NCBI GenBank assembly: GCA_020055645.1 | Contig: CM034546.1 | Location: 34,162,001 to 34,226,000 of the forward strand | Source: Tomocerus qinae | Lineage: Eukaryota; Arthropoda; Collembola; Entomobryomorpha; Tomoceridae | Direction of reading: 5' to 3' | Length of the DNA stretch: 64,000 nucleotides | Shown: piece after piece, positions 3,691 to 38,279 of the stretch | Layout: every line of letters starts with the position of its first letter | Numbering within the stretch: the stretch's first letter is position 1 | Program-made: the position numbers and the translations under genes | Notes under the pieces: model-generated | Database searches by the model: none | The model's input: only the letters and a program-made list of their open reading frames with translations | What the model was told of the DNA's origin: nothing

Positions 3691-3750
3691 TGCCTTTTTG
3701 GCACGAAAATTTGATATTTCATTGCCATGTAAGAAACTATTTTAACAGAA

Positions 3751-4962
3751 GTGGGAGTTGAAGGTGTAAGTCTTGGAAGGAAGATGTTACATGCGCTACT
3801 CTACGCAGATGACACAGTAGTGTTAGCGAAGACGGCCAAAGGTCTACAAATGAAAATTAATATACTGACAAGATACTTTGACAAACTGGGGTTAGTAGTT
3901 AACAAAGATAAGACGAAGATAATTATTTTTAGGAGGAAGGGAAGAATCGGCAAGAAGGAGGAATTTACAATGCTAGGGGAGAAACTAGAGATTGTGAACG
4001 AATATAGATATCTCGGGGTTGTGTTATCATCAAGTATAATTTTTAGAAAAGCTGCAGAAGATAGGAAGGTAAAGGGAATGGGGGCAGTAAACAGAACACT
4101 AAGCATTCTCAGAAGAGGCAGAACGGATTCTTACGAGGCAATAAACAAATTATATGAAACAGTAGCTAGAGCGACTTTACTGTATGGATGTGAGGTATGG
4201 GGTTTAGGATATATGGATATACTGGAAAGAGTACAGACGCACTTTTATAAGAGGGTGCTTGGACTCGAGAGATACACTGCGGGGTATATAGTCAGACTTG
4301 AATGCGCAAGAATACATACAGAAATAAACGTATGGGAACGCACGCTTAGATATTGGAAGAGAGTATTGCAGATGAAAGAAGACAGTTTACCAAGAATAGC
4401 ATATATGGCATTAAAGAAAGCAGATACAGAGAGCAAAGAAGAATGTAAATATAATTGGGTTACTCAAGTTAGACTAGGCTTACAAAAATATAAATGTGAT
4501 GATGCATGGAATCTGCAAAATGTGGATACTGAGGATTACAGGATGACAGTAGAGAAAATAAGATTACAACTATACGAAAAGGATGTACAAAGGGTAGCGC
4601 AATCAGAAAGAAATGCATTTTACGAGAGATATATAACGGATGTAGGTATACCAGCAACATACCTAACTCTAAGAATGGGAACAAATGACAAGAGAATAAT
4701 AGCTGGAGCCAGATTAGGAGGCAACTATTTTATAATAGATGGCAAAATATGTAGATTTTTCCCTACACTAAAATGCCAATACTGCAACCTAGATAAACTA
4801 GACAACATCCTCCATATCATATGTGAATGTCCAATTCTGAAATCTGAAGCAATCAGCAGTATATATCATAATAAGAACAGGCAGGAACAAACAGAATATA
4901 CATGGCAGGATATTTGCTCCATTAAAAGCAGAGAGCAGGAGTCGAATTGTGTCAGCAAATAA
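3751..4962 (+). CDS. LINE reverse transcriptase, C-terminal part (403 aa, 5'-truncated)
   Basis: The frame opens at the truncated 5' end of the LINE and runs uninterrupted to TAA. RT motif C appears near the start as LLYADDTVVLA, followed by a motif D/E region with NKDKTKIIIF and a thumb-type segment with YRYLGVVLSS. Near the C-terminus a Cys-His cluster (CQYCNLDKLDNILHIICECP) has the C-x2-C...H-x4-C spacing typical of non-LTR RT tails. The fingers and RT motifs before YADD are missing, as is the endonuclease, so the product cannot be active. The broken LINE at 25663-27705 carries a related RT (shared EIVNxYxYLGxxxS region). The first residues are arbitrary, since the true start lay in the lost 5' part. 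Confidence 0.9.
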   Translation: MGVEGVSLGRKMLHALLYADDTVVLAKTAKGLQMKINILTRYFDKLGLVVNKDKTKIIIFRRKGRIGKKEEFTMLGEKLEIVNEYRYLGVVLSSSIIFRKAAEDRKVKGMGAVNRTLSILRRGRTDSYEAINKLYETVARATLLYGCEVWGLGYMDILERVQTHFYKRVLGLERYTAGYIVRLECARIHTEINVWERTLRYWKRVLQMKEDSLPRIAYMALKKADTESKEECKYNWVTQVRLGLQKYKCDDAWNLQNVDTEDYRMTVEKIRLQLYEKDVQRVAQSERNAFYERYITDVGIPATYLTLRMGTNDKRIIAGARLGGNYFIIDGKICRFFPTLKCQYCNLDKLDNILHIICECPILKSEAISSIYHNKNRQEQTEYTWQDICSIKSREQESNCVSK

Positions 4963-5755: not shown

Positions 5756-6050
5756 AAGTGAGGATATAAAATGTATAAGGGTAATTATAGCTTTTAGTAT
5801 AAGTTAGTGGTAATAATTTTATTAGTACATAACACTATAAGAAACAAAAACTTGTATTAATCTAAAAATAGGTATAGTATATAGAGCAGAGATATAGTAT
5901 ATAATAAACTAGCCTATAAAATATAACAAACAAATGTCAAGCATAACAATATACATTGTAATTGTAAATTGTCCTGGGTCCATGGGCGCGAGCCCGTAGG
6001 GACCGTCAGTAATAAATAAAAATAAAAAAATAAAATGTAAGAAACTATTT

Positions 6051-6440
6051 ATGTCTTCGGCGGGTGATGACAATAGAATAGATTACTGTCCTTCGATTGT
6101 GACCAAGAAATGTCTGCTAGCGATCGAAATGAGAAAATGCGGTAGCGACGCCAGTAAAAGAAAGATAGATTTTATAGTTTATTTTGCTTTAACACAGATA
6201 ATAAAATTCATTAAAATAAAGACCTTATTTACAAAAGGTCATAAATGATTTAATATAATTTTATTTCATAGCCTTTTATGATTTCTGTGAATAACATTTA
6301 GGAGGTTCGAAAAGTAAACATGAACAAAGGCAAAACAAACAGGCCATTAAAGTAACTACAAGAGGAATTACTGCATCATCAAAAGAAAAAGAAATTTCCA
6401 CAATCCAATCCTCGACATCTGGAATCACAATTATGTCAAG
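6051..6440. repeat. Continuation of the NB-ARC 3'-flank duplication
   Basis: After the LINE, sequence again matches the right copy (from about 59385), through the TCTTCGGCGGGTGATGACAA block and on to the end of the receptor main exon. It includes the probable 3' UTR of the minus-strand gene. No separate gene is seen. Confidence 0.7.
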
Positions 6441-6444
6441 TAGT

Positions 6445-6660
6445 TTAATACAATTCCATTAACTCCATAAAATCTTTCCACTCCATTCCCCTCCCCCTTC
6501 CTCCCTCCCACAAATAATAATCTGCTTTTCTGTCGACGTGGCTGGAGAGAGCCGACAAATCTTCTTCCTTCCAATTGATTCTTCCGACTGCAATTCTCTT
6601 TATTTCTTTCTTCGTCAACTCAAACTCAATCAACTCTTTTGGTGTAATTGATTCAGACAA
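6445..6660 (-). pseudogene. Detached C-terminal tail of left NB-ARC gene (frameshifted)
   Basis: This minus-strand frame encodes TPKELIEFELTKKEIKRIAV and a WKEEDLSALSSHVDRKADYY-type ending. It is homologous to the last 75 or so residues of the intact right copy (59772-63029) but is out of frame with the left main exon. Compared with the right copy, the left one carries a longer, different sequence at about 6650-6695 with a run of nine A/T, which causes the shift. The left product would instead end in a short unrelated tail at 6630. Confidence 0.75.
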
Positions 6661-9305
6661 AAGGAAAAAAAAATTCTAAATTTAATGTGAGCAACGAGTT
6701 CGTCTGTCTGGAAGTGACCCAACAATTCCTCCACTTCTTTGAAAGAAAAGCCATCCAGAATGAGTTTCTCCACTCTCTTCCCTCCACCTACAACTACCGT
6801 GTTAGATAATGCGATGATAGCGTTATTCATCTTGATATGGGTGACGCTTTTGGGAAGTTTATCTACATTCACTTCATTCATCTGATAGAAGTGTATGTGT
6901 GTGAGGTTAGCAGATTGTAAAGAAGACAACAAGGAAGAATCGGACATCCAACTAAGTGTCAAATATTTCAGATTTGGAAGGTCAATTGGTTCATTACAAA
7001 CAACTTCTGCCCAACCTAAATCCAATTTTTCAATTGTTGGAGGAAGGTAAGAAATGTCTAAAGAAGAATACCAGAAGTACATCTCTTTGACTTTCATTTT
7101 CGTCTTTTCTACTAATGGAATATCCCTCAATTCTAGTCTTTGAATATTCCATCTGGCCTCTTTCAAGTTTAACACTTTCACTCTAAATAAGTGAAGATAT
7201 TCCATGGAGATTTCGTCACTCAACTCGATAGACATGTTAACTCTCTCCTCACCCTGGAGTGTCAATTTATTGATTTTGTGGAAGTCACAGAATTCGTTGA
7301 GATTCGCCTCCTCCACTTCCCGTCCATTTCTATTGAATGAGACATTATCTAAAGTCAAATCCTCTGGAGACAGTCGATCGAAAGATGAAAGATCCAATGA
7401 ACAATGACTCAATTTAATTTTACTTGATTCTCCTCCCAATTCCAATTTGATTGTAGATCTATCATATTCCTTTACCAGAAAATAATTGCACTTTATGAGA
7501 TCTGAATGGACTAATCGAATCAAAGTGCCAAGTGAATCTTCCAAATAAATGACTTGGAATCTTTTTCTGCTTTCCAGAAGTTCCTTAAGTTCTCCAGTGT
7601 TGTCCATTTTGCAATAAATAATCAACTGATGACCCCAAATCAGATCTCTGGACAATTCTTCTTTCAATCCCAACATCCCCATCTTTACAGCATAGTTAGA
7701 ATGTTTTCTCGTTTCCTCCATTTCTTCCTTATCCAATTCCTTTAGAATCTCCAAACTTTCTTCCAATTTTTCATTCTTGGCTAGACAAATAGAATAATTA
7801 AATCTAGATGTTTGATTTTTCAACTCCTGATGAATAAATCGGGCCAACTGAACCGACTCCTCAAACCTCTCTTCTCCAATCAATTTTCTTAATTGCTCTT
7901 GATCGAGTAACTCTGCTCTGACTTTTGGAAATTCTTTTCTTAGTTCTTCATCAGCGTACTTGGTGAAAGGAATTAATTTGTATTCGATGAATCCCTCGCA
8001 GCCGAGAATCTTCTTCAACGTCTCATTTTGTGTCTGCCGCCCAATGTGACGAATTACTTGCTGCAAAAGTCGATGGACACTCAACGAAATCTTGATTTCA
8101 TCCTCAATTTTCACTTTCTTTTTGGCAACAAACGAATATCTCTTTAATATTTTGATGGCCATTTTTAATTCCTCGTTCTCGAAATTTAATACTTTCATTA
8201 AAAATTCGACTTCTACGTCGTCTGGTCGCATATATCCAAGGAGTAGCAAAATTTCGTAGGCTTCTTTTCCACAATTTTCTTTTATTATTAATTCTAGAGC
8301 AATCTTTACATTATTATTGATTGTCCGTTCATAGTCATCAAATCGTTCATCAATGATCTTTTCCAATTTGTTCTTCTCAAGGTAGCTTTTTAGATCAATA
8401 TTTCCACAGTTGATAGCTGCAGCGGCCAATTGAAGAGCTAAAGGTAGATTTGCAGTCAATGTGCATAATTCCGTTAGTTCTGAATCCGTTCTTCCTATTG
8501 AAGCAAGTAATGTTGATGTTAAGAATTCCAGACTTTCTTCTTCGCTGAAAATGTCTAATTCAAGATCAGATATTTTCCCGTATCCAATATTTTCCGTCCC
8601 CCATTCACGACTTCTTGAAGTGATGATACAATAAAAGTTTTTTTCGTCTTTAGGAAGGACATTTATAATCCCTTCCTCTCCTTTGTAATTTACTGCATTG
8701 TCGTAGATCCAAAGACAATTAAATGCAGACAACGCATCAAAACATTTTCGAGAATAATCTTGAACTTTGACCAATTTGTCTAAATGTTTAATCTCCAAAT
8801 CTCTGGCCAGACTTTCAAAGGATGTGAGTAGACTGCCCTCCCCGCAGTCGATCCATAAGATATGATCATATTTTTGTTCGTAAGTGTGTGCATACCATTT
8901 GACAGTGAGAGTTTTTCCGACTCCGCCCATCCCCGAATATTTGGACGCTGTCAGGGACTCGCAGATGACAAGCATTCGATTCTCATCCTTCAAAATGCGG
9001 TCTTGTAACTCTTGAATTAGGAGTTTCCCTTCGAATTTTCTTTTCAGAAGGGATTTTATTAGCATTTTTTTATCTGGCCACCACTTTTTTATTTTCGGGT
9101 TGAGAACCGGATTTCGGGTTCGAATTGGAAAGGACTTATGTGGAAGAGAGTGTCTGTCGCTGGTTTCTAGAATTTCTTGGGCACAACGCTCATTGCTCGT
9201 TTTGCGTAGTATTTCTAGAAATGTATCTCTAATCTGCCCCCAATCCTTCTTTTGTAGTGTAGATAGCAGTTTTCGGTTTTGTTTAATTGGAGTACTTTCA
9301 ACCTC
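6630..9305 (-). CDS. NB-ARC receptor main exon, left copy (891 codons)
   Basis: I begin at 9305, directly after the acceptor ATTTACAG, because the frame is open from there and the right copy has the same acceptor at 63030. The first 45 residues (EVESTPIKQNRKLL, TLQKKDWGQIRDTFLEILRK) form the second half of a CARD. Then come the P-loop GMGGVGKT (about 125-132), a Walker B-like LWIYDNA, the sensor-like IITSRSREWG and a GLPL-type NLPLALQLA. These are the marks of the NB-ARC module of Apaf-1, CED-4 and NLRs. A winged-helix region follows, then one TPR-like helical unit, then leucine-rich repeat-like segments (for example LPNLKYLTLSWMSD). The known family role is a nucleotide-switched scaffold that oligomerises to trigger apoptosis or immunity. 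The likely first exon is 22933-23052, giving 931 aa. The C-terminus is truncated relative to the right copy, so function may be impaired. Confidence 0.85.
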   Translation of the reverse strand, partial: EVESTPIKQNRKLLSTLQKKDWGQIRDTFLEILRKTSNERCAQEILETSDRHSLPHKSFPIRTRNPVLNPKIKKWWPDKKMLIKSLLKRKFEGKLLIQELQDRILKDENRMLVICESLTASKYSGMGGVGKTLTVKWYAHTYEQKYDHILWIDCGEGSLLTSFESLARDLEIKHLDKLVKVQDYSRKCFDALSAFNCLWIYDNAVNYKGEEGIINVLPKDEKNFYCIITSRSREWGTENIGYGKISDLELDIFSEEESLEFLTSTLLASIGRTDSELTELCTLTANLPLALQLAAAAINCGNIDLKSYLEKNKLEKIIDERFDDYERTINNNVKIALELIIKENCGKEAYEILLLLGYMRPDDVEVEFLMKVLNFENEELKMAIKILKRYSFVAKKKVKIEDEIKISLSVHRLLQQVIRHIGRQTQNETLKKILGCEGFIEYKLIPFTKYADEELRKEFPKVRAELLDQEQLRKLIGEERFEESVQLARFIHQELKNQTSRFNYSICLAKNEKLEESLEILKELDKEEMEETRKHSNYAVKMGMLGLKEELSRDLIWGHQLIIYCKMDNTGELKELLESRKRFQVIYLEDSLGTLIRLVHSDLIKCNYFLVKEYDRSTIKLELGGESSKIKLSHCSLDLSSFDRLSPEDLTLDNVSFNRNGREVEEANLNEFCDFHKINKLTLQGEERVNMSIELSDEISMEYLHLFRVKVLNLKEARWNIQRLELRDIPLVEKTKMKVKEMYFWYSSLDISYLPPTIEKLDLGWAEVVCNEPIDLPNLKYLTLSWMSDSSLLSSLQSANLTHIHFYQMNEVNVDKLPKSVTHIKMNNAIIALSNTVVVGGGKRVEKLILDGFSFKEVEELLGHFQTDELVAHIKFRIFFSFCLNQLHQKS

Positions 9306-10394
9306 CTGTAAATGATATTTAAATAAACCATTTACAAACCTGAAGGTTGTCTATTTCTGTTCTATTCGAATGCAGTGTTGAAAAAGAATTTGGAAAGCAT
9401 GTTGATTAAAATTTGTGTTTGTGACGTTAAAGTAAGTTGATAATAAGCAAAAGGTATGGCAAAATAGCAACTACACAATGCAATTGGTCTAACTGGCAAG
9501 TATTATTCCTTCTAAACTGCAACCATTCTTGCGATGATGGAAATATTTCGCGTTAATTCCTTCACCCAAAGTTCTTGAGACCCCATCACCAAATACTTGC
9601 CAGGTTTTCTATGACCGGAAAGACCGGAAAGTAATATTTTATAGCTTTTTAAAAGAAATTAGATAGAAGTAGACTGGAAGTTTCGATTGTTTACTTTTAC
9701 TGGCAGAAATACCCGCAAACATTATATATATATAAACTCTACAATCTATAAGTTTATCTATATCCTTTCGCGGGGATTTCTACCTCAAAAGTTATAACAC
9801 AGAGTGAATGTAAACTTCCACTCTATCCTTACTTATGACTCTACTAGCTTTTTATGTCAATGTAGTCGACTACATGACCGTCTCAGAAAGGTTGCGTACG
9901 TCGGCCTGTAGAAGCCTCTTATAAGCAAATGGCAAATTAAATTAGCAAATTCGAAGCAATTTCGAGAAAATATCACCCTCAAATCTTTCCTTCTAACCTT
10001 CCACAGGTCGTTAAAAATTTAACATTTAGCAACATTTAGTCAAAGAAAGCGTAAAAATTCCAATTTCGGACACGTAAAATGTAACTCGAAAACCATTTTA
10101 TCGATTGAAGTACATGTTTAATGAAACTCTCGGAGTACACTTAGATGATCAAATATCGAAGTCCCACGAACACAAAAAGGAAACAAAAACTTCAGTTTGA
10201 ATAAATAACCTAACATTTCTTATGTTTATCTATACTAAATTATTTCAGAAAAGCGGCAAAAATAGTGAACGGATGCTATATAAAAGTAACTATATATTGC
10301 TGAAAACTATTTTTAAAGCTTTTGTTTCATGACTCTGCAACCGTTGAAGTCGCTCTTTTATAATGGGTTTGGGCTCTACTGCCGCCTAATCTTT
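9306..10394. other. Intron-side flank of left receptor, duplicated at 63030-63930
   Basis: No gene is seen. The sequence aligns along most of its length with 63030-63930, including TTAGCAAATT and AAAATAGTGAACG segments, so the segmental duplication extends upstream of the main exon. The left copy has an extra segment near 9347-9395. It is interpreted as intron of the minus-strand receptor gene. Confidence 0.65.
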
Positions 10395-11860
10395 TCTTAA
10401 TCTCTTACTCGAGATTGGTAATCCGGAAAAAGGTGAGGGTAGGGACGGCGAAGGTTCAGGTAGCGGCTCAGGTAGCAAACGAAAGTCCCAGGGTAGTAAG
10501 ACTTTTCACAGCATACCCAAAAATTGTAAGCATTGGAGTACTTACAATTAAGTGTTCAGGTTTACCTAATGCTACTGTTGCTAGCCGATGCTGCACGCTG
10601 GCTTGATTCATGGTTCTATTCTACAGTATATCTTCTGTGCATTGTTTGCTTTATATTTACACTATTACACTACTAGTAATAATAAATTTCTACCATTGCC
10701 CCATAATCAATGATATCCATAAAATATGTGTTATATAAAACTAAACTCGCACAAAGTAATGCTGTTTAGTTTTTTAATTATGACTTATTTGTGATTGCCA
10801 TTAATATTGCTTAAATTTTTACTTATTATATTTATGAAAGACAATATATAGTAATTTAGTAATGTTAAAGCTTTTTTGATACTGGAAGTGAAAAGCTTAC
10901 TGGTTGCAACTTGTAGCAACGCCCAACGAATACTACAATACAATTACACGGTTTTAACTAATGCATAATGTTGTAAACATGAAAAAAATTAAATAATTAA
11001 AAATGGTTATTTAGTCTAATGACAACCAAGAATGATGGTAAGTACTTATAGCTTAAATTTTAGTATTATTTGGACGAATATATCACCAGCTTATTAATTC
11101 CAGTATTTGATAGTTTGGGTATTATTATATTTAGTTATATACATTGAAAATTAACAAGTGTTGTATATTTTATTAGTTTATACTACTTTAAGATAAAGTA
11201 GAAAAAACTTATTGTAGTTCAGCGTTGTTAGAAGTTGCAAACGTAAGTTTACTTCCAGCATCGAAATTTTTTTGTATACTGCCTAAAATGACATGGGCAT
11301 TATTAGAGTATATTATTGTCTTTCATAAATATAATGAGTAAAAATTCAAGCAATATTAATGGCAATCACAAATAAGCCATAATTAAAAAAACATAACAGC
11401 ATTGTTTTTTGTGCAAGTTTAGTTTTAGATTTACATATAAAACATATTTATGGATATCATTGATTATGGAGCAATGGTAGAAGTTTATTATAGTTACTAG
11501 TGTAATAGTGTAAATGTAAAGGCAGTAATGTAAAGCAAGCAATGCACAGAAGATGTACTGTAGAGTAGAACCATGAATCAAGGCAGCCAGCGTGCAGCAT
11601 CGGCTAGCAACAGTATAGCATTAGGTAAACCTGAACACTTAATTATAAGTACTCCCAGTCCTTTACCTGTGCTTACAATTTTTGGGTGTGCTGGAAAAGT
11701 CTCACTACCCTGGGCCTTTCGTTTGTTACCTGAACCGCTACCTGAACCTTCGCCGTCCCTTCCCTCACCTTTTTCCGGATTACCAATTCCGAGAAGGATT
11801 TTAAGGAAAGACTTACGGGCAGATCTTACCACATCCTTTATAATATAACAATTGACGGAC
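10395..11860. mobile_element. Large foldback element with ~500-bp inverted arms
   Basis: The arms are about 10410-10922 and 11221-11850 and are reverse complements at high identity, with only about 300 bp between them. One arm contains a glycine/serine-codon-rich segment (GGTAGCGGCTCAGGTAGC), which creates short open frames. It interrupts the duplicated receptor intron: sequence just outside (to about 10370 and from about 11850) is continuous in the right copy near 63930-64000. It is therefore an insertion specific to the left copy. No transposase is seen. Confidence 0.75.
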
Positions 11861-12268
11861 TTAAACAATTCCGCACCCCTTGATATAGTCCAGCCTTCTG
11901 ATGAAGTACTCCGGGATATCTTTCGAAATAGACAAACTTCGTCTTCTTGCAGTGGACAAAAAAATGACATTTTTTGCCTATTATATAAATAAGTTGGAAG
12001 TATGATCTTAGAAAACATTCCTTTTTTGCCTTTTTAATGTAGCTACTGTAGTTCCTTCCACTTTACATGTAAATTAGGTAAAAAGGGTAAAGAGGACAGC
12101 TTTTTAAAAAGTAGTACTTTTTATACCTTATTTTGAAAAAAATGGAGTTTATTTTTTGTCGCCTGTCTTTTTGCTGCTTGGATAACTGAAATGCAAATGG
12201 CGGAAATTTACCATTTTCAAATATGCATTTTAATTAATATTTAACAAATTAAAACGATAAAACAGAAG
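11861..12268. other. Receptor intron flank, continued
   Basis: The stretch to about 11935 matches the last 60 bases of the window (CTTTCGAAATAGAC shared), so it is still part of the duplicated locus. No gene can be supported here. Confidence 0.5.
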
Positions 12269-12276
12269 AAACAGCA

Positions 12277-12526
12277 CAGTACCGTATTTAGAAGTCGATT
12301 TCGGAGGGGGCAATGATATCATAGGACAATATATATTAGGCATATTCGCGCGAAGCGCGAAAAATTTTGGCTTATTTTGTCTAAAATGAGTCAAAATTAA
12401 CCTAAAAATCACATAAAATCGCGCGAAGCGCGAAATTTTTTGGTATTTTGAGAAAAAATTTCCCTTTTCTTGGATTTCGGGGGGGGGGGGCATTTGCCCC
12501 CAAAGCCCCCCCTCAATACAGCCTTG
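12277..12526. mobile_element. hAT-type MITE with GCGCGAAGCGCG motifs
   Basis: The element is bounded by an exact 8-bp TSD, AAACAGCA, at 12269-12276 and 12527-12534. Its ends are CAGTACCGTATTTAG and the complement of CAAGGCTGTATTGAG. It contains two CGCGCGAAGCGCG palindromic words and a long G run. The same family recurs at 40288-40505 with its own TSD. It is noncoding. Confidence 0.85.
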
Positions 12527-12699
12527 AAACAGCATATAATAAATTAAATTAGTATGTATTTTTCTTAAATATAAAACTTTCTTGTCAGGAAACGGAATTT
12601 CTCTGTCATTTAATATCAAAATTTTTAAAGTGAAAGTAATGTGATTAAATATGACCTTATATTTACCTCAGGTTACTTTATCATATGAGTCTCCAAAAA

Positions 12700-13550
12700 A
12701 CCTGGAAAAATATACGGTGAGAATGCCAGAAAAACTCGAAAACAAGAAATATTTAGATACCAATACATAATTAAAGCTCGTAATTTTACAATTTTCTTCA
12801 AAAAAATCTCCCCGTGCGTTTACTGCTAATTTACTTGCAACTAACTTCTTTGAAAAACAAAGCATTTTATAGTAAAAATATAATAGTAATTCAATTAACT
12901 CCTGAAGCGGGGATGGAAAATATTTTAGAAAAAGGGAACACCAGTCAAAGTTGCCATTTAGTGTTTTGTGGGAACACCTTTGCAATCGTACATACAAAAT
13001 AGTATTCGTTCAGTAATTGTAACGACTCCAAGTTATTTTCTGAAAATCACACCCAGGTTAAATAGTTGTATCCATAGTAATTAAGCAACAATTAAGAGTA
13101 TAAATAAATCTTTCCATATTAACAACATTTAGTAGTTAAATATATTTAGATATGACTGCAAAATAATTGTCCACTAAATGTCTAAAAATGTTGTTAGTGT
13201 GAAGAAATCGTCACAACGTACGAAGTAACTGTGAAATAAGAATGTTCTGCTTTTCATATGGAAAAGTTATAGTCTTAAAATACTACAGGATCTTCTCATT
13301 TCAATATTTACATTTCCATAAAATTTATATTTGGAGTTATTAGCACGTAAAGTCTAGTTGATACTATAGTGTGTATCTAATGTTTTAGGCAAGTTGTATG
13401 GTTGTTGCAAGGAAATTAACTGTAAACGCATGGGGAGATTTTTTTAAAGAAAATTGTAAAATTACGAGCTTTAATTATGTATTGGTATCTAAATATTTCT
13501 TGTTTTCGAGTTTTTCTGGCATTCTCACCGTATATTTTTCCAGGTTTTTA
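12700..13550. repeat. Foldback repeat, ~145-bp inverted arms
   Basis: The segments 12700-12845 and 13400-13548 are reverse complements (shared core TTGTAAAATTACGAGCTTTA). The spacer of about 550 bp is AT-rich and noncoding. It is probably a nonautonomous transposon; clear ends and a TSD were not identified. Confidence 0.65.
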
Positions 13551-16500
13551 CCTGTTATATTTTTTATTTTATTGTTTTTCTTGATATAGCTGGTTATAAC
13601 TATCATATAACTACGAACTACAAAAGTTTTAACCAGATTATGGATATTTTGAAATTATTTATGTACCTTACAATACGGTAATACAGCGCACGACAATGTA
13701 CAGTACTAGAGTATCATATCCCTCTATTTAATATGTCCCTATTTCCGAAATATTTATCCCTGTCTAGGTTATAATCAAAGAGCTTGGACGTTGTCGTGTC
13801 AAGCTCCTTGGTTATAAGTTATAATGTAAATTTTACATATATGGAAAACTGATACATAAGTTATTTGAGCTACATCTTTATTTTGATTTTTTTGCAAAAT
13901 TATTAATATATTATGTATGTAATAAGATAATTTTGTTTTTTATTGGGGGCTGCCGCCCCCAAACCCCCGCTTGAGGGGAGATGAATAGTATCCTTGAAGT
14001 TAGTAAAACACGACACGAGCCAGCAAAGCGTAAATGTTTGTATTAGTGGTTGTAGTAATGAACATTATAGATATGCATGCCTATTACAATTTGACATTTT
14101 CGATGCCTGGAATGAATCGCACTCAATACTAATTTTTTTCCATCCCTGAAATTTTCTTCATTGTTTGTTTTACAATCCTTGCAAGTACCCTCAAACCTAA
14201 TATATTTTCCATCTCTAGAATTGGGAATACTACGTAACAGGAATAATGCATCTTTAAATCCGACATTATTATCATTATTGAGATGATGCCTGCCAATGCC
14301 AATTCAGTGCACTCACCAACCACTCAGTACTCCGTATCTACGGAGATTGAATTAGGAAATAGAATGTTTCAATGTCTATTCCTAGTTTCATGATCATGAG
14401 TCCATCCACTCCATCCAGTACCCAATTGACTATGACTATGATGCATTGTACCAAGTAGCCAAGGAGATAAATTGGTGACCAAACAATTTAAAAATTCATT
14501 CTTCCGGTTCCTACGGCTAAAGTTGACACCGGATAGCTGATTTCAAATTAATGCACACCCCGCAAAGAAATGCTCTACGTTTTCGGTATCTTGCATTATT
14601 TCACAGAAATTACTAGTTTACGAGCAATCGGTGTCAATAGATTTTGACCCTTCAGTTAAATGCAGTATAAGTGGTGAAACCACACATTGCCCTTCGGGCA
14701 ATGCGCTGTCTGCTTTGCAGTTTCTCCCCGTATAATAAATAGTTACATCCAAATCAATGAACGGTTTGGCTTTCACGGAAGAATTTTATTTATTCTTATT
14801 TTCAGTCTTCAGCTAACCTGGCCTTGGGGCGCATTGAAGTTTTCATCCAATCATTTAATTTAACATTAAAAATAATTGCCAAACTTAGATACGAACTGTC
14901 TGTTTGCCAACATTTATTTATTCTGGACAATGTAAGACCCAAAGTATCCTAGCTACTACCATACTTCGGCTACTACACTAAAGCATAGCGTCACCACAAT
15001 TTCTGTACTCTGTACCGTAAACCTTAACTTTGAAAAGGTGTATCTCCTAATGCGGGTCTCAAATTTTGATTAATACTGATGCAACTATATACCCTTGGTA
15101 TTCTAAAAATGTAAATTTCCAATATCCATCCGCCCTTGTAAGGTATGTATAAATTGGGCCACAAAGCAGAGCATCCGGTTTGGCTGTACTTCCCGGCCCG
15201 ACAGACTATTGTTTATATTTAAAACGCATTGTCGGGCTCGGGCCCATGGAAATGTTCAAGTGACGTCATAGTAAAAAAATATTTCACCTATAAGTTAGAG
15301 AGATAATACTAACACATACGATTAAAAGTAGTTTTTAATTAGTCTAGATGTGAAATATTAATCAGTCGGGCGTCCTTATCAAAAGATATTAACAAGATGA
15401 ATCGAATTTGTGGCTCGAGTAAAGCAGAGGGTAAATCCTAACCTATCGATGTTATTGTTTTAATTAGGTTAGGTGCCTCGAAAGTGAGTTTTGGTATCCT
15501 CTGTGTAATTCATGGCGCGATTTTTAAAATTTTTCCCTCAGCTTTACTACAGCCGAATTTGTCACTCTAGCAACGTATTTTATGTTAACCCCATTACAAG
15601 CATAGACTAAGTATTCATAGTAGACTAAGACACACAAAGTCTATTTACCAATCTGAAGGAAAATTTGAATGCCTATACTGCCAAACTATTGCGCCACGAA
15701 TTGGCGCCTGTTCTCAAACTCTAATCCACCTGAGGTGGTCATAATTTAGTCTTTGTCATTGGCTGTCAACTAGCCAATAGTAATGATTAAATTATGAGAG
15801 ATGGCATCAAATATAACAATGACTTTGGGCACATTAAGCTGTTTCAGGCTTAATCTTAGTATATTTATTACAAGGTGGAGATATAGAGGGGGAGGGGGTT
15901 TCCCGGATTTTTGCACCCAATCCCACACTGCCACCGTGCAACCTGCCACCCTAAGCTACCCAAAAGCGACATCATGGATAAAGTAGCCCACACAACTGTT
16001 TTGTGAGACTAGAGACCGATATTTCTTAGTTGCCGAAAATCCATATTAGACAATTTAAGGTATATATCATTTATCGGCACTTTACCCGAAAGGCACCTTG
16101 TAACTCATCCGACAAATCATAATTAGAGCGCACTATAAGCTCTCAAATTACGTTTTAAATGTAGAATATTTTTAACATCATAATGACACAACTTAATAAT
16201 ATTTAACCGATAATTTACCGCCCAAGGAAAATTAAATTTGTTGTCAGGTATTTTTGTTTTTGTCTTTTTTAATACTAAGATCCATCACAGATGATTGACC
16301 TGCTCTAGAATGACGTCCTAGTTTATGACACGTTGTCGAGCACATTTTAGGCGGATTTCGAGAAATTGCCTATTTTATCGTTCACTTTTGACTTAAGATA
16401 TCTCTGGATTGGCAGGGTTCGGCACTTTTGTTTTAACGAGGGGCTTCGTCTCTAAATTGGTTGAGTGGTTGACTATCAAAATGCATGTTAAACATGTTTC

Positions 16501-17932
16501 ACAACGGGCTCTATTTCTTCCAAAATACAAACACTATATTAATGAAACCTGCATAATTGGAATTGTGGAACAACCAGTTACACCTGATTGCATTCAGAAT
16601 TTTGATATTCTAGTTCTAAATACTGCAAAAATATTAACGTCTTAAGAAAGCTATAATTTTAAAACTTTTTTAGAACATTAATTTTTTGGGGGCATTTAAA
16701 ATTACAATATCAAAAATCTAAGTGGTATCCGGTGTAACTGTATGTTTCAAGATTCCAAATATGCAAGTTTCATTAAAATCCGGGTTGTATTTTGGAAGAA
16801 ATAGAGCTGGATGTAAGAGTAGTTTTTCGAACAATGAAGAATTTCAAATTCGATGAAAGTCGACCGGAAATGCTATCATGGAATATCCGAGCACATTGAC
16901 TTAGATAACATGATATACGCAAAAGTAAAAAGTTAATTTCTATAGAAAACATTGATTCATAGGCATAGGCAAGCTCTTCCAAGAACCATAGCAATATTAG
17001 CAATACAGTACCAATCTACTATCATTCCTATTCTGTCCATATTATTATCTTTCTATCTATTATTCTGTCGTCATTGGCAACTGCAATCACATAATCAATA
17101 CCACCAAACAATGAATAGATTATCTTATTTAATTTTTTGAAAATCATCGAGTATTTTACATAAACTGTCAATGATTGTCAAAACCCAGGGGCAGTTTGAG
17201 AGGATAGTACCCATAGTAATCAATACAACTTAGTGTGTCGGTTAGGTTAGGACCTGGGTTTCGGTTACGATTTGTAAAGTAATTTTCAAGGGTAAATCTT
17301 GAAAATTAAATATTTTTCGTTAGCAACCAATCGACGAAGCCCATCCTTAATTGTGCATATCACTCCATCTTAGGTCTACCTGTTGAAAATAATTTTGGGC
17401 TTTCGGCTTGTTTTTTTAAAACTCAAGTCAAAAGGGTTCTATAGGTTAACCTGTTTGCATTGGGCTACATGAATTAATGCCTTCGCATAAAAATATTAGC
17501 ATGAGACTTTTTCCCCTTTAAGTGGATACGCTTAGGCATATCGTGGCAACAAATTAGAGATGGCCTATTCTTTATTAACGAAATATTGATTTTTCAATAA
17601 AATTCATTTTGCCATTTAAACCCATAGGATTTTCATATCCGATGCGTTCAAATATTCAAAAATGAGCCTTCGCATAAAATTATTTGGACAAAACTTTTTT
17701 TCTAAATAGCTTAAAGCACTCTTCATTTGATTTATTAAAATTGAGGATGGCCTATCTTTTGTTCATGAGAAATTATATTTTCTTTGTAAGATTTCCATGT
17801 ATAAGTACTTTCAGCTGTACTTCAATTGGATCTATATAGATCTAGTTGGCTATAGTGACACTTATCACTCTCACGATACTATAACTACACAACCAGTGTA
17901 GAGAATGAAGCTCTCAATTAATTGCTCCGATC
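13551..17932. other. Noncoding, repeat-rich stretch
   Basis: No supported gene. A short repeat (TTACAAGGTGGAGATATAGA and following GTTTCCCGGATTTTTGCACC) at about 15870-15930 recurs near 29819-29870. The open frame at 16409-16645 (78 codons) has no recognisable domain. The words TTGGCTATAGTGACACTTAT near 17850 recur near 18243. Confidence 0.4.
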
Positions 17933-19868
17933 AGTGGCGTAGCTATCACTAAGGGGACTGAGGTTAAGGAGCGTAGTATAATACCCCTTTAGGAAGGACA
18001 GAATTGAACTGGCCCTTCTCCCTGGCAATTTTGTAATGTTATAAACATTCATGGAAAGCGTTTATATTCGGTGTTAAGACGTTTTCAAGTGCGCTGATCA
18101 CGAGTAAAATAAAATCAATTGTCTGCAAATAGCCCAGCGCGCGTACCGCGCATGCGCCAAACTAAATTGACTTGTTTTAAGCTCATATTTAGTGTTTTAG
18201 ACGCTTTTAAATGATATATGACATAATATATAGATCCAATACAGTTGGCTATAGTGACACTTATCACTCTCACCTCACGATACTATAACTACACAACATT
18301 ATATTGGACATTTTATGGTTTCCATGATTTTGATACGTAAACATTTGTAATAAACAATGACCGACTTTTGATTATTAATGAAAACAATAATAATTACCTA
18401 TACTATATTATAATTTCAAGGAGTATGTATGCCTGTGTGTCCACCCCCATTTTACCCTATGGGACATTATGTTGACTATTCTAGAAGAAAGAAAGAACAT
18501 TATAGACAGAAATAACCAAGGACGTATTTAGGGATGGACTTTACGGGCTGAAGCCCCCCCCCCCCCCGAAATCCAAGAAAAGGGAATTTTTTCTCAAAAT
18601 AGGAAAAAATATCTATTGGAAATCTATCCCCCTCCGAAATTCAGTTCTGCATACGTACTTGGAAATAACTATACGAAAATATAGATAAAAATAACTATAA
18701 ATTCGTGCTATGTATTGAAACCCCAGATGTGACTATATTTTAGTTTTTCGCATGATAACATGGGTAAAATACATTTGATTTACACGTAATAGACACCATT
18801 AAAAAGAGAAAAAAATAATACTTTTCCCTACTGTACGTTACAGCAGGGAAAAGAATGAACCGGCAGGCACTCCCGTATATTATTTTTTAACCCACAAGGT
18901 CCTTTGGCTGTCATTCCTATTTTCTCATACATGAACAAATTATTAAAAATAATAATTAATACATTCAATCTTTCATCCAGCACTACGAAAGCACTTCCTT
19001 CCTACACCCCTGATGCTTTATCATACCCAGTATAAATTAAAACATTCATTTCTTTTTCTGTAGAGGTAACACTGTCCAAAAATGATAATGCCGATAAGTA
19101 TTATTTATTGGTTGGTGGAAGGGGAGGTGAAGTTTACAGTCAACAAGATGCTTATTGTTTATGAGAGAAGAGTAGGTGGGGAGATGTTGCTGATGAGAAG
19201 TATGGAGCAGGGCAATAGTGGGTAAATTAGAGACTACAGGTCAGAGGGTAAAACATTATTTTATCTGGAGGAGGTGAATCGGCACGGAGGGGGAGGTGGA
19301 GACACTTTTTGGTTTGGATGGAGTGGATGAGGCAAGTTGAGACTACATCAATAAAATTAAAAGTTTTATTATTGGGGAGATGGACGATATGATTGGAAAA
19401 GATTAATTTTAAATCCCTCTGTTTTGTATACTTTATTCTGATTTTGCAAGAAGTAAGTTTGGTCAATTTTTTTCCGTGGCGAAGTCTCGGGTCGCCGAAG
19501 GCCTGGTAATTTTGGTACTGCAATGCATTTTGAATACTGTTGTCGGATGTCAGTATTTGCAAACAATTGATTTTATTTTATTCGTAATTCGTAATCAGCG
19601 CATACGAAAACGGTTGAGCACCGAACATGAGCTTAAAAACAAATAATTTTAGTTAAGCGCATGCACAGTGCTGGCGCAATTTATTTTTTTATTCGTGATC
19701 AGCACATTTGAAAACGTGTAAACACAAAAAATTAGCGCTTTCCATGAATGCCTTTAGTATTACAAAACTTTCAGGAGGAAGGGGCAGTTAATACTCTGCC
19801 CTCTCTAAAGAGGTATTAGGCTACGCTCCTTACCCTCAGTACCCTTAGTGATACCTACGCTACTGACG
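17933..19868. mobile_element. Nonautonomous DNA transposon with ~270-bp terminal inverted repeats
   Basis: The left arm begins CAGTGGCGTAGCTATCACTA and the right arm ends with the complement of CAGTAGCGTAGGTATCACTA. Homology continues inward for about 270 bp (17933-18205 against 19590-19868). Flanks CCGAT and ACGAT suggest a short, eroded target duplication. The interior holds another MITE-like start, CAAGGACGTATTTAGG, near 18520 and a G+A-rich stretch near 19100-19320. No transposase is seen. Confidence 0.7.
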
Positions 19869-20392
19869 ATAAGCTTCTTTCTCTACCCTGGTGACAATGA
19901 CAAAATACATACAATACACATGTACTGATTTTAAACGTCTTTGTTGATTTTTATTTATCCTTGGTTACCTAAGGGGTTAAATAGGGGCCCAGGCTGCAGT
20001 TATTAAGAACTGGGCAATCAAATTAAAATATTCTTTACCATAGGGCCCAAACTCACGTATCTAATCTATAGGGTTCTTTCCCATGTATTTTAAATGGGAG
20101 ACAAAATTTTGGTCGCGATTTCAATGCTTAGTACATGGTAACTACTGGCTCAAATGACTAAAAATTTCAAAATTAAATGGTCCAAGCATTTGTTATTCAT
20201 TTAATAATAAATAAAAGTGTGATATCACAAGTTCAATTTTTAGGTAATCGTTTTTTACCGTTAATGGTGCGTATGTGAATTCGAATTCTACCTATACTAG
20301 TAAACTGTAAACTTGTAAACCAAGCCTTAGCTTAGGAGACTACACCGATCGCAATGTATAATTTTGATGCGCACGCATTGCCATAAAGTTCT
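19869..20392. other. Noncoding stretch
   Basis: AT-rich DNA between two repeats; no gene or regulatory element is recognised. Confidence 0.4.
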
Positions 20393-20829
20393 TCTGGTTC
20401 GGAAGTGTTGGGATCATACCTCGGCACACACACACAAATATGAGTGTTTGTGTTCAAAAATGAGTGCACACACGCCTACAATAAGTTCACTGTGTGGTGT
20501 GTGAGTAGGGAAAAATTTCGTATATCAATTGAGTGGTGTTTGTAGGGCAAATTTCAAGTTACCAATTGTGTTGTGAGTGTGTGGTTAGGATAATTTTCAA
20601 GTAACAAATTGTGTGGTGTGTGTGTAGGGCAAAAATATCAACCAATCGTGTTGTTGTGTGTAGGAATATGCAACTTTAATCAATTGCCCTGTGTTTATGT
20701 GTCGGTTTGTAGATTATTTAGGGAATGTGTAAATGTATAAACACTGCGCTACACATACACAAAGTGTATAACTATATTAAGGATCTACAGTACACAGCAT
20801 GCTCAGCACACTTACTAGATCGCACCAAT
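20393..20829. repeat. TG/CA-rich repeat, left flank of minisatellite
   Basis: This is rich in GTGTGTGTAGGGCAA-type words. The first part matches 30552-30880, and the part 20663-20829 is almost identical to 32701-32867. It joins directly to the 23-bp array, so flank and array form one composite repeat family. Confidence 0.7.
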
Positions 20830-21369
20830 AAAATATAAATGGCTTGTGTAACAAAATATAAATGGCTTGCGTAATAAAATATAAATGGCTTGCGTAATAA
20901 AATATAAACGGCTTGCGTAATAAAATATAAACGGCTTGCGTAATAAAATATAAATGGCTTGCGTAATAAAATATAAATGGCTTGCGTAATAAAATATAAA
21001 TGGCTTGCGTAATAAAATATAAATGACTTGCGTAATAAAATATAAATGGCTTGCGTAATAAAATATAAATGGCTTGCGTAATAAAATATAAATGGCTTGC
21101 GTAATAAAATATAAATGGCTTGCGTAATAAAATATAAATGTCTCGCGTAATAAAATATAAATGGCTTGCGTAATAAAATATAAATGACTTGCGTAATAAA
21201 ATATAAATGGCTTGCGTAATAAAATATAAATGGCTTGCGTAATAAAATATAAATGTCTCGCGTAATAAAATATAAATGGCTTGCGTAATAAAATATAAAT
21301 GTCTCGCGTAATAAAATATAAATGGCTTGCGTAATAAAATATAAATGGCTTGCGTAATAAAATATAAAT
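20830..21369. repeat. 23-bp minisatellite, about 23 copies
   Basis: The tandem unit is GGCTTGCGTAATAAAATATA plus AAT (23 bp). Variants include GACTTGCG and GTCTCGCG. The reverse complement of the unit has no stop in any frame, and 23 is not a multiple of 3, so long open frames of a 23-residue repeat arise in all three minus frames. I treat this as noncoding. A second array of the same unit is at 34733-35160. Confidence 0.95.
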
Positions 21370-21660
21370 AATGCATTGTATCAACTTCTTTCATTTCATT
21401 TCAACAACATTTCTTTTAATTTGGGTGTGGGAAGAGCTCTTAAACACCAATTTATGATTTCTTAGTGTCCAACTCACATAATTTATTGTGTGATGTATTT
21501 GTGGGGGCAAATAATACAACGCTAGAAATGTGGTGTGTGAGTGGGGCAAATACCAGAACCTTCACTGTGTTGTGTGTATGTGTGGAGCATGCCCCACAAT
21601 ATTCATTATGTGGTGTGTGTTACTTTTACATTCTCGTTGTAGGAAGGTTGTTTGCGATAC
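21370..21660. repeat. Right flank of the minisatellite composite repeat
   Basis: The words TTTAATTTGGGTGTGGGAAG and TTATTGTGTGATGTATTTGT recur at 35296-35390, following the second array in the same order. Confidence 0.7.
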
Positions 21661-22774
21661 TGTGTTTTGACGTGTATTTTACTCTGTTACATACACGTTT
21701 GGTAATCGACACACCACGATGTCGGCTAAAAACTAAAAATTATGGTAATAGACAGTTAGTTTTTTTCCTTAACTTAACTTTGAGCCTGACGTAGGGTATG
21801 TTTTACGTTAAGTTTCGTCCCTTTTCCGCAAGAGTCCAACGCTATGCCAAAAAAATCAAGCTCAGCTAATATTATGGCAGGTACTGTACTATTTTCAAGG
21901 CATAGCCCTAAAAATCACGAAAATAGCCCCAGATGGGGATCACACCCACAAGAAAACTTTTCCCCCAAAATGCTTCAGACACTAACTTCTTATGTACACT
22001 AGGACTGTATTAAATGATATTTAATCTAAAAATAATCAACAACTATGATGTCTCTACCGTTCCTTACAGTGTGCACTATGACCTTAATAACTTCCAAACG
22101 ATATGGCATATTCAAATGAGAGCTAAATATCAATACCGACGAAAAACTAGAAAAATGTAAAAGTTGCTTGGACGAAAATATATGAATAAATGACAAAATG
22201 CCTGTTTGATCTTTATTTAATAACGTTTCAATTATTAGGTTCAGATCAACGAGGTTAACGGCAACGAAAAAAACATGCGATTTTGAGTAAAATGAGTAAA
22301 ACCTAAATGTTTTTAATGTAAAAGTAAGAACAAGAACATCTTCTCCTGGAAATGAGCCGCGAAGAAGATTGCGATTTTAGAAGAAAGGTGACCTGCTCAT
22401 TTCATGGTCTGAATTTATGAATTTCTATAATCCATCTTTCCATCTCTTAATCACACTTCCTATTCTATATTATCTTGTCTTGTCTATATCGACTATCAAG
22501 CGATCCTTCCCCAGCACCAAAGCCGTCCTCTGACTAGGTATCTAAAAAAAATTCCTATTCTTCTATTTGTGCGGATTTAATGAACCTAATTCTTCCGATT
22601 TTGATAAACTTTGATGGAAAAACCAATTATGCCATTTTAAATTAATTATTTTGGAAATATTATTCCAAAATAATATTTTAGAGGACGTGCGAAAATTTGG
22701 AGAGTTTGAAAGCGGGCAGAATGTCTCAAAATTTTCAACTTGTTTTCGTATTCGTTGTTCACCCACTTAACTTC
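21661..22774. other. Noncoding stretch
   Basis: No gene can be supported. The short open frames are isolated and carry no recognisable motif. Confidence 0.4.
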
Positions 22775-23545
22775 ATCCGATTTTGATACGACTAAGCTCA
22801 TTAGTTTCCCAAAAGGATTCTCTTTAAATAGATAGGAAGTGCTTTTTGATACCTAGCGGGAAGATGGATCTGGTGCGGGGGACGATCTAAGTGATGACTC
22901 TGTGCTAATAATTAAAAAGTAAATGAACTTACAATTTCATCGCCTTCCTCCTCAGAGATTATGCCGTGTTGAATCAAGTGTAACAACACATCTGTCAAAT
23001 CCGATAGATTTTTTGCCAAAAAAACAAGATTTTGTCGAATTTCGTTTTCCATTGTATTGATTGAAGATAAATATATTTGAAACACGTTCAGAAAATTTAA
23101 AAAACAGCGTAAGTAGATCAACGGCGTGCAAACTCTAAAATGGCTGAAGCTCAATGTTTGATGAAATGGCATTTGTGAGTAGTGGGCGTCGTTGTTGGAG
23201 AATGATAACAATTGGGAGTATGAGTATATAATTCTCCCTTTACATTGTGATGGAATCGTTGCAATGTATTTATTGCATGATAAATATTACTGCCACCTCA
23301 ATTGTCGTAAATACAATCGTTATCAATTTGCTGATAAAGTAGGGTTTTGGTTTGCCCATCATACTTTGATTATAACCACTTGGGAAAATATATACGTTTA
23401 GAAAAGTGGGAACTTTCCAGATAATTAAAAAGTTTTGTTTAAAACCTAAACTGAGATGTAATTTGATTTATCTTAAATTACATAACCTTTTAGAGCACTC
23501 AATTAGTCTCTGTTCTATTCTATATAATAAGATGTAGTTTAGATG
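22775..23545 (-). repeat. CARD-exon module A (promoter plus first exon)
   Basis: This is similar along its length to module C (56525-57550, same orientation) and module B (42475-43540, inverted). The shared part covers the 5' region, the 40-codon exon and its donor site, and stops about 150 bp into the downstream intron. Shared landmarks include GCGTAAGTAGATCAACGGCG upstream of the exon. Conservation of the upstream part suggests that it holds a promoter. Confidence 0.75.
22933..23052 (-). CDS. First exon encoding CARD helices 1-3 (40 aa), intact copy A
   Basis: ATG at 23052 opens a 40-codon exon ending at a strong donor (ATT|GTAAGTTC), phase 0. The product contains RQNLVFLAKNLSDL, TDVLLHLIQHG and IISEEEGDEI. 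These have the layout of the first three CARD helices (for example in Apaf-1, where a similar SEEE turn follows the third helix). The main exon at 9305 starts in phase 0 with the remaining helices (KLLSTLQKKDW, FLEILRK). I infer that this exon splices to 9305 over an intron of about 13.6 kb on the same strand. An in-frame open stretch continues upstream to 23211, so an earlier start cannot be excluded. Alternatives are that the module is an orphan first exon or joins another gene copy. Confidence 0.65.
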
Positions 23546-24941: not shown

Positions 24942-25662
24942 AAGGACGTATTTAGGGGGGTGCTAGGGTGCTTAAGCACCCCCTAAATATTTTGAAAGCA
25001 CACTAGATATTATCGCGTTTTCACCACTTATGTAATATTTAAGTATTTAATTCCAAATTGAAGGAAACATATATTTTCGTTTTCATATGACACAATAACA
25101 TATATTTTATTTTCGAGCATTTTCGAATATGTTTAAACATTTTCGAATCGTTTTTTCCCTGTATTGAACCTTAGGATCTGAGATTACCTTATATTATATT
25201 GTTACAAAATGGAAATGTGCTTAGCAATTGACCACTTCTGAAATGAGGGCCGAACTGGGTGGGTGATGACAGATAAATCACATATTTAGAAGTGTGCTGC
25301 CCCCAGCCCAATAATCTTGATATCAAATGGATTTTTTTGACAAAGATTAAAAATCATAAATTTTTTCGTTCTTCTATGTTTCTTCTTTTTCACTAATATA
25401 ATGATGCAAGGTCGAACTGAGGGATGGGATGACCAAAATCAAAGAAAAGGGGCATTTTTTCTCACAATTACAAAAAATTTCGCTCCTTTTTTAACTCATT
25501 TCCGTCAAAAAAGTCCAATTTTCGCGTTATTGGAATTAGCCCCTTCCGAAACTCCGTTCTGTTTACGTGCTTGTAATGATGGTCGTTCTAATTGCTTGAT
25601 TTATCTAATACTCATTTTTAGAAATTAGCACCCCCTAGATCCAATTTCTAGATACGCCCTTG
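24942..25662. mobile_element. hAT-type nonautonomous element
   Basis: The ends are CAAGGACGTATTTAGG and the complement of CAAGGGCGTATCTAGA. Flanks ATAATGAC and ATAGGGAC match at 6 of 8 positions, fitting a decayed 8-bp TSD. A similar start occurs near 18520. The interior shares the TTTTCTCACAATTACAAAAA region with the GCGCGAAGCGCG family. It abuts or interrupts the LINE remnant that follows. Confidence 0.65.
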
Positions 25663-27705
25663 ATAGGGACATACAACATACCGCATAGTGTATACAATAA
25701 TGACGGAGCCAAAACACTAATAACAACTCAAGACAGTGGACTGAACCCTAGAGGAAGAAAGATAATCTCAATTTGCGAAGAGGACGATCTATTTATTTGT
25801 AATGGCTGTACGGACGGCGACTCAGAAGTGCAAACACATATTACAAAAAATAGCAGCAGTGTAATTGATTTGGAAATTGTTTCCTCGCAGTTAATATCCT
25901 CCAATAAGATTCACGACTTTTGCATTAAGGACAGCATTCATTCAAAGCACTGCGCAATTGAAATGAGTTTAAATGTTTGTCGGCCAAACGAAAATGAGGT
26001 GCAACCGTTGGAAATTCCAGTAATTCGTTGGGACATAAAGAAAAAAGAAGAATTCACATCGACACTACAAGTTATCTTTGAAGAAATGCAGAACGATAAT
26101 CTAGAGTCCATGAAAATGACAAAGATGTGCCAACTTATATACAAAGCTGCTAATCTTTGCGAGTTAAAGACGGAGAGAAGAATTGGTTCACAGCAGAAAT
26201 TAATGTCACCTAAATGGTTTGATCATGAATGTAAACAAGCCAAATCAGATCTAAGGAAGAAGCTAAGATTTTTAAGAAAACAAAACCCAACAACCAACAA
26301 AATTGGGTATAGGGAATTCGTTAAAGCCTACCTGGACAGTAAGAAACACTTTGAAACCGTCATCAATATCGAAAAGGTTGAATACTATCAAGAAATACAA
26401 AACAAAATTCTAGAAAACCATAATTCCGAATTCTGGGAAGCCATAAAAATATTTAGGAACTCTAAACATTACGTTACTAATGACATCACGCTTGATGCAT
26501 GGCATGACCACTATCAAAAAATATTCAGTAATGACTGATATAACTCCTGTCGAGTGTGAACCAGAAGTGACAGATGAAGAATTAGATCAGCCATTTAATA
26601 TGTTCTAACTCAACCTAGCAATAAATAAATTGTCAACAAATAAAGCACCAGGAATAGACGGGATACCCAATGAAGTGCTGAAAAACTTACCACTGAATGC
26701 AAAAACAGAACTGTTAGCTGTATTCAATGAAATGTTTGAAGACCCTGCAAAAATAGCCAGCGACTGGACAAAAATTACCATAGTACCGTTACATAAAAAA
26801 GGGAATACAGAGGATCCGCGAAATTATAGACCGATCTCGCTTGTTAACCCTACATTGAAACTATTTACATCTCTACTTGCAAGCCGTCTAAACTCATGGT
26901 GCAAAAAGAAAAACACAATATCGGAATTCCAAGCAGGTTACAAACAACGAAATGGAACCATTGATCAAGTGTTCATTCTTAACTGTCTAGTGCAATATTG
27001 TCTTCGATTACGGAAAAAAAGTATACGCTCTCTTCGTGGACTTAAGCCAAGGGTTCGACTCCGTGGAGCAACAATTGCTGTGGAGTAAGCTAACAAAAGC
27101 GGGTATTAGTAAGAAATTCATAAAAGTAATACAAATAATATACTCTTCAGTTAAAGCATGCATTCGTACCGATAAAGGTTTCTCTAACACTTTCAAAATT
27201 GAAAGATCAGTTTTACAGGGAGAGACGTTGTCAACAAAACTATTTATAATATTTTTGGATGACATAGTCGACACAATCAACAAGACTAACATACCAGGTG
27301 TACAAATAGGAGACTTTACCATACATATATTGCTATATTGTGATGATATCTGCATAACAGCTGACACTCCTGCAAATCTACAAAAGAAAGTAAACATACT
27401 TAGTGAATATTTAAACCGTAACAAATTAAACATTAATCTTAGTAAAACAAAAATTATTGTATTTAGAAGAGGAGGTCAAGTTTGTAATTTGGGTTTTCTA
27501 TGAAAATAAGCAAATTGAAATTGTAAATAGTTACGTGTATCTTGGTATTCCCTTTTCGCACACGGGTAAATTTCGTATCGCAGCTGATCACTTTAATGGA
27601 AGGGGAAATATTGCAACAAAAGACATCACTATTTGCACAATCAAAACTAAACGCAATTGTGTGAGTTGGGTGACATTAAATTACACTAAGTTAGGGATAA
27701 AATAA
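25663..27705 (+). pseudogene. Broken LINE: endonuclease C-terminus plus reverse transcriptase
   Basis: The frame 25660-26538 carries the end of an EEP (AP-like) endonuclease, with SSVIDLEIVSS and the late motif DSIHSKHCAIEM. RT follows: KAPGIDGIPNEVL and NYRPISLVNPTLKL at 26630-27088, then a frame change to 27036-27503 with VDLSQGFDSV, SVLQGETLS and a YCDD core (in LLYCDDICITA) where YADD is expected. A further shift precedes the YLGIPFS region (27457-27705). At least two frameshifts and an in-frame stop between endonuclease and RT make it dead. It is related to the LINE at 3743-6034. The true ends were not located. Confidence 0.9.
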
Positions 27706-28689: not shown

Positions 28690-28990
28690 AGAGCCTGTTA
28701 GATTGAGACGTTTTGGGTAGTTACTGGTTGGGTTGAGACGGTTTGGGAAGATACTGGTTTGGGCTTACACGGTTTGGGGTGAGATGGTTTGTATTTCGAC
28801 GGTTTAGATTGAGAAGGTTTGGGTTGAGACGGTTTGCATTGAGAAGGTTTGGGTTGAGACGGTTTAGGTTGAGACGGTTTGAGTCGAGAATTTTTGGATT
28901 AAGACTGTTTGGAATGAGGCGATTTGGATTGAGAATGTTTGGGTTGAAACAGTTTTAATTGAGACGGTTTGGGTTGAGACGGTTTAGGAA
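28690..28990. repeat. 15-bp minisatellite
   Basis: Degenerate tandem units of GAGACGGTTTGGGTT, about 20 copies. Because 15 is a multiple of 3, the plus strand reads as a short RRFGL-type repeat (28743-28958). This looks like an artefact of the tandem repeat rather than a gene. Confidence 0.85.
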
Positions 28991-34732: not shown

Positions 34733-35160
34733 GTAAAATATAAATGGCTTGTGTAACAAAATATAAATGGCTTGCGTAATAAAATATAAATGGCTTGCGT
34801 AATAAAATATAAATGGCTTGCGTAATAAAATATAAATGGCTTGCGTAATAAAATATAAATGGCTTGCGTAATAAAATATAAACGGCTTGCGTAATAAAAT
34901 ATAAACGGCTTGCGTAATAAAATATAAATGACTTGCGTAATAAAATATAATTGGCTTGCGTAATAAAATATAAAAGGCTTGCGTAATAAAATATAAATGG
35001 CTTGCGTAATAAAATATAAATGGCTTGCGTAATAAAATATAAATGGCTTGTGTAATAAAATATAAATGGCTTGCGTAATAAAATATAAATGGCTTGCGTA
35101 ATAAAATATAAATGGCTTGCGTAATAAAATATGAATGGCTTGGTTAATAAAATATAAATA
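34733..35160. repeat. 23-bp minisatellite, second array, about 18 copies
   Basis: The unit and orientation are the same as at 20830-21369. Both arrays start with the same GTGTAAC variant unit and end with AATATAAAT followed by a TGCATTGTATCAA segment, so the arrays were copied together with their edges. Confidence 0.95.
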
Positions 35161-38241: not shown

Positions 38242-38279
38242 TTTTCATTTATTGCTTCTATTTATTCATCTATTGCTAG

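Follow-up and report, generated by a model that had tools for sequence, protein, structure and literature searches.

A 64,000-nucleotide stretch of the genome of the collembolan Tomocerus qinae (positions 34,162,001 to 34,226,000, forward strand, of contig CM034546.1 in assembly GCA_020055645.1; in its entirety, the window) carries two paralogous genes, A and B, which are probably a duplicated pair of intracellular receptor genes of the plan CARD-NB-ARC-(winged helix, TPR-like)-LRR, with a long intron dividing the CARD. Computation shows firmly that the joined sequence holds a CARD, that NB-ARC and LRR domains are present, that the gene was duplicated and how change is distributed between the copies. 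A winged helix and TPR would be further constituents of both proteins, and gene A would be expressed by way of a 22933/9305 splice junction.

Gene A would start with a short exon that supplies the initiating ATG and half of the CARD; after a long intron filled with repeats, a single large exon would specify all the rest. Its parts are as follows.

22933-23052, minus strand: exon 1 of gene A; 120 nucleotides, 40 codons, ATG at 23052, phase 0, first CARD half
22927-22932, minus strand: donor of exon 1, GTAAGT
9306-22932, minus strand: putative intron of 13,627 bases, deduced from the two splice sites
9306-9312, minus strand: acceptor of the main exon, TTTACAG (the gene B counterpart is TTCACAG)
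6630-9305, minus strand: main exon of gene A; 891 codons and a stop, first Met at codon 81
9165-9305, minus strand: second CARD half, 47 codons, by the joined-profile match
8403-8939, minus strand: NB-ARC of gene A; main-exon residues 123-301 match PF00931 at 38.8 bits
6680-7425, minus strand: LRR region of gene A, roughly delimited by aligning it with B; the fold is modelled on B
6630-6690, minus strand: 3' end of gene A, which leaves the frame of B within or next to a run of T

The sequence-only reading that preceded this analysis had exon 1 ending in phase 0 before GTAAGT and the main exon starting at 9305 after TTTACAG, and these coordinates are confirmed. The join, in phase 0, makes a protein of 40 + 891 = 931 residues. 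That reading included neither paralogue B nor the two orphan copies of exon 1, the 138-residue unit and the 3' frameshift of A that are described below.

Membership of the CARD family is judged here by a match to PF00619 that exceeds the curated cut-off (23.9 bits) across the whole domain. Exon 1 alone stays under it (18.9 bits), and the second half alone matches no Pfam family. Joined, the halves (87 residues) reach 40.8 bits (E 2.3e-10), with a match that covers positions 2-81 of the 85 in the profile, and a 121-residue version scores 39.6 bits, so that the cut-off is passed by joined halves only. The earlier claim that neither half is a CARD by itself but that the two together are has thus held, and Pfam confirms the NB-ARC as well (PF00931, 38.8 bits). 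The control for the join consists of all minus-strand [CT]AG sites from 6000 to 22933 that are followed by 47 open in-phase codons. There are 32 of these, three of which are 9305 itself or overlap it; of the other 29, all but 6881 and 6675 served as decoys, 27 in total, each scanned as a fusion to exon 1 (several of these overlap one another and are not all independent). The 27 decoy joins score 16.4-22.9 bits, with matches that stop at residue 40-65 of 87; the 22933/9305 join stands ~18 bits over the best decoy tested. Exon 1 of A with the matching half of B gives 41.4 bits. Because the joined score lies far above the decoys and the B half behaves in the same way, the two halves together qualify as a CARD on profile evidence. 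Among the N-terminal 121 residues, Pfam (E up to 10) finds no coiled-coil, RPW8 or TIR family.

Gene B shares the strand of A, and the aligned proteins of the two are 79% identical.

59772-63029, minus strand: main exon of paralogue B; 1085 codons and a stop, first Met at codon 111
62136-62666, minus strand: NB-ARC of gene B; PF00931 at 39.2 bits
60813-61742, minus strand: helical TPR-like part of gene B; one unit of it, 138 residues long, is missing from A
59946-60725, minus strand: LRR domain of gene B, by predicted structure
63375-63910, minus strand: intron flank of B, a 78% match to 9845-10362 of A

A first exon of B was not found in the window; it would lie upstream, near or beyond the window end. 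At 7737-7826 the DNA matches between A and B overlap, and B has matches to itself spaced 414 bases apart, the pattern that gaining or losing a single repeat unit would leave. (The internal repeat of B occupies 61062-61134 and 61476-61548, at this 414-base spacing, with one unit missing from A.)

An LRR domain is confirmed by predicted structure. The structure models of B have alignments of just two sequences behind them; the first model has a mean pLDDT (predicted local distance difference test score) of 39.7, is poor outside the LRR and confirms neither NB-ARC nor CARD. Helices are predicted in the helical part of B with pLDDT mostly below 50, and that part may have another fold. Searches of solved structures gave a single unrelated match to the NB-ARC part of B (E 1.3) and no match to the A/B profile. 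What survives of the order CARD-NB-ARC-TPR-LRR proposed from sequence is CARD, NB-ARC, a helical part and LRR; the TPR element is sub-threshold (TPR_19 on the helical part of B, 20.2 bits for a cut-off of 25).

The case for joining exon 1 to the main exon of A does not come from the splice sites. The donor GTAAGT agrees with consensus at 7 of 9 positions, and is equalled or bettered by 130 of 3363 GT sites on the minus strand. Splice-site strength by itself is not telling, and would not have revealed the 22933/9305 join. An upstream exon is called for by the main exon, which has no start codon in its first 80 codons in A or its first 110 in B. The CARD half precedes the first Met, yet its ratio of nonsynonymous to synonymous change (dN/dS) between A and B is 0.18; it is thus very probably translated, and an upstream exon that supplies a start codon is needed. 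Among the tblastn matches listed, exon 1 is the sole open-frame copy upstream of A on its strand, and no nearer good copy is found in the window. (A candidate for a nearer CARD half within the intron, at 22283-22191 on the minus strand, was rejected: its tblastn match is weak, E 2.3, and it has no Pfam match.)

Change between A and B is unevenly distributed. For the main exon as a whole dN/dS is 0.32; it is 0.18 in the CARD half, 0.18 in NB-ARC, and 0.21 in the part after NB-ARC, while the helical part has 0.43 and the LRR 0.70. The change counts of NB-ARC and LRR differ (Fisher p 0.0003). This fits a conserved engine attached to a changing sensor. By analogy with other STAND (signal transduction ATPases with numerous domains) receptors, the LRR would sense a ligand or a disturbed host protein, NB-ARC would exchange ADP for ATP and then oligomerise, and the clustered CARDs would recruit a CARD-bearing caspase or adaptor, leading to cell death or immune signalling. 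Ligand, recruited partner and output are all assigned to the A and B proteins on that analogy.

Several observations weigh against reading A and B as duplicated receptor genes with a split CARD. The acceptor of the main exon is ordinary (its pyrimidine richness is equalled or bettered at 901 of 1527 YAG sites on the minus strand). Exon 1 compared with its open orphan copy has a dN/dS of 0.72, and so exon 1 itself is without clear purifying selection. The linker that follows the CARD half has a dN/dS of 0.55 (on few changes), and the LRR ratio is raised partly by a lower dS there (0.163 vs 0.419), which gene conversion could cause. Gene A is frameshifted relative to B near 6665 and ends early; the cause may be faulty sequencing or a mutation of recent date, or the gene may be decaying. 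The TPR score lies under its cut-off, as already noted, and the ~8000 candidates scored per search included no relative that has the complete architecture. Finally, exon 1 has two orphan copies elsewhere in the window, and the exon 1 assigned to A could therefore be an orphan too.

43260-43379, plus strand: orphan exon 1 copy, open frame, ATG kept, on the strand opposite to A
56674-56791, minus strand: orphan exon 1 copy, ATG kept, broken by a 2-base deletion

Their donors are GTAAGT and GTAAGC, with GTAAG kept in both, and no copy of the main exon stands behind either of them in the window (among the matches listed). The open orphan has no Pfam match alone and scores 27.5 bits as a CARD when joined to the second half of A. 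Both copies are borne by an inverted duplication (42471-43539 and 56525-57549, 89%).

These points can be assembled into another account, in which the exon at 22933 would be one more orphan, the third, A would be a pseudogene in decay, and B alone would work, from a first exon outside the window. Orphans with nothing behind them, the 3' frameshift, the lack of clear purifying selection on exon 1 and the length and repeat content of the intron would all suit it. On the other hand, of the three copies of exon 1 only that of A matches CARD alone, it is placed upstream of A on the same strand with no nearer good copy among the tblastn matches listed, and dN/dS between A and B is low in the CARD half and NB-ARC, a comparison that is silent on when either gene last worked. 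The account is on balance unlikely, though it is the most serious of the alternatives. That the gene is simply the Apaf-1 of this species, and so builds the apoptosome instead of acting as a sensor receptor, agrees with a CARD followed by NB-ARC and with little else: neither A (Pfam, E up to 10) nor B (E up to 0.05) has a WD40 match, an LRR domain takes the place of WD40, and there are two copies whose greatest change is in the LRR. This must be considered very improbable. Least credible of all, and already disfavoured, is a chance join of two helical stretches as the source of the CARD match. Exon 1 does retain 16.4-22.9 bits with unrelated tails, and a sequence search of solved structures with the joined CARD yields 21 matches to E 10, all weak, with a designed helical protein first (E 0.0024), ahead of CARD8 (0.02) and RAIDD (0.073). 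The margin of the proposed join over the tested decoys, the extent of its match to the profile and the like result with the second half of B argue against chance. A pair of duplicated receptor genes with a split CARD thus remains the probable reading of A and B.

The putative intron of A contains inverted repeats and a 23-bp minisatellite, whose two arrays, ~95% alike, lie at 20827-21369 (within that intron) and 34734-35159. A 15-bp tandem repeat occupies 28703-28985 (~19 copies, 70% matches). Two plus-strand pieces are of LINE (long interspersed element) retrotransposon type: 3733-4962, with a reverse transcriptase match (32.8 bits), and 25639-26538, with a sub-threshold endonuclease match (21.6 bits); open reading frames (ORFs) at 26609-27503 resemble a continuation of the latter. 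The plus-strand ORF 36806-38041, in a locally GC-richer stretch, matches the phlebovirus G2 fusion glycoprotein (PF07245, E 1.2e-30) and has ORF 36464-36805 as its neighbour. It is flanked by 144-base direct repeats (35582-35725 and 38278-38421, 97%) and is perhaps, with these, the remnant of an envelope-bearing retroelement. Three ORFs in 579-2333 (plus strand) have no Pfam match at E 0.05; the first repeats an SLDDII-like motif, which may be of the kind seen in mRNA export adaptors. Rfam gives no match at gathering score.

The 931-residue model has 13 matches among 7993 candidates scored; those named by organism are Streptosporangium (two), a Limnocylindrales metagenome-assembled genome and two diatoms, and no animal name is among the 13. 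Residues 430-1085 of B have no match at E 0.01 among 7991 candidates scored. Residues 96-432 of B match NF040586 (117.7 bits, E 5.6e-34, under its curated cut-off of 300) in a library of prokaryotic families only, which permits no ranking against animal Apaf-1. In what was searched, NB-ARC-TPR proteins are the best matches to the NB-ARC part. The sequence-only reading had spoken of an Apaf-1/NLR-like receptor; with this affinity, and with WD40 found in neither paralogue by the Pfam scans, Apaf-1 as the family is not supported.

Like A and B, Apaf-1 and CED-4 (the subject of a nematode paper, PMC7456325, as its available extract has it) have CARD and NB-ARC in that order, which in A and B depends on the proposed join. 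A and B differ from them in having an LRR domain, no WD40 that could be found and two copies in the window, and are not filed as Apaf-1 because no WD40 was found. The animal NACHT-LRR proteins (NOD, NLRP, NLRC4) share with A and B a death-fold effector, a nucleotide-binding domain and a C-terminal LRR, but the nucleotide-binding domain of A and B matches NB-ARC, with no NACHT match in the family scans of either; they are therefore not filed as standard animal NLRs. NB-ARC together with LRR is the property of plant resistance proteins, from which A and B differ in having a CARD rather than a coiled coil or TIR, FNIP-like repeats, and a helical part between NB-ARC and LRR. (A plant review, in the extract available, treats NACHT-LRR of animals and NB-ARC-LRR of plants as separate fusions; PMC3782705.) The NB-ARC-TPR proteins of the FxSxx-COOH system (NF040586) and of diatoms provide the best matches to NB-ARC and the part that follows, and unlike A and B do not have CARD or LRR among their listed domains.

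Among animals, Trichoplax sp. H2 comes close. The accessible portion of its description (PMC6321704) reports 42 NACHT/NB-ARC genes with CARD or death-like domains and WD40 or TPR repeats. Its CARD-NB-ARC-TPR proteins resemble A and B in placing a CARD or death-like domain before NB-ARC and repeats after it, and in having paralogues (many of them). In that same portion LRR is reported in none of the 42, and Hydra is said to be similar, whereas A and B have an LRR after the helical part. Amphioxus has a TIR-NB-ARC-WD40 protein, described in the extract of PMC2575513. A coral survey, in the extract at hand, speaks of NACHT/NB-ARC proteins, the two undistinguished, with LRR, TPR, ankyrin or WD40 repeats (PMC4083563), and this counts against any claim to a first sighting; among the openly licensed papers that the searches listed, no title or abstract opening announces a CARD-NB-ARC-LRR protein from an animal or arthropod. 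The best label for A and B is that of a CARD-NB-ARC-(TPR-like)-LRR gene family. It is conceivable, and we suggest it tentatively, that they represent a separate invention of the NLR plan, in which an animal placed NB-ARC and LRR behind a CARD independently of both plant resistance proteins and NACHT-LRR, the genes multiplying and their half-exons being copied separately. Such a family in an animal would be a further receptor of the NLR plan, and its genes lend themselves to assays of caspase recruitment.
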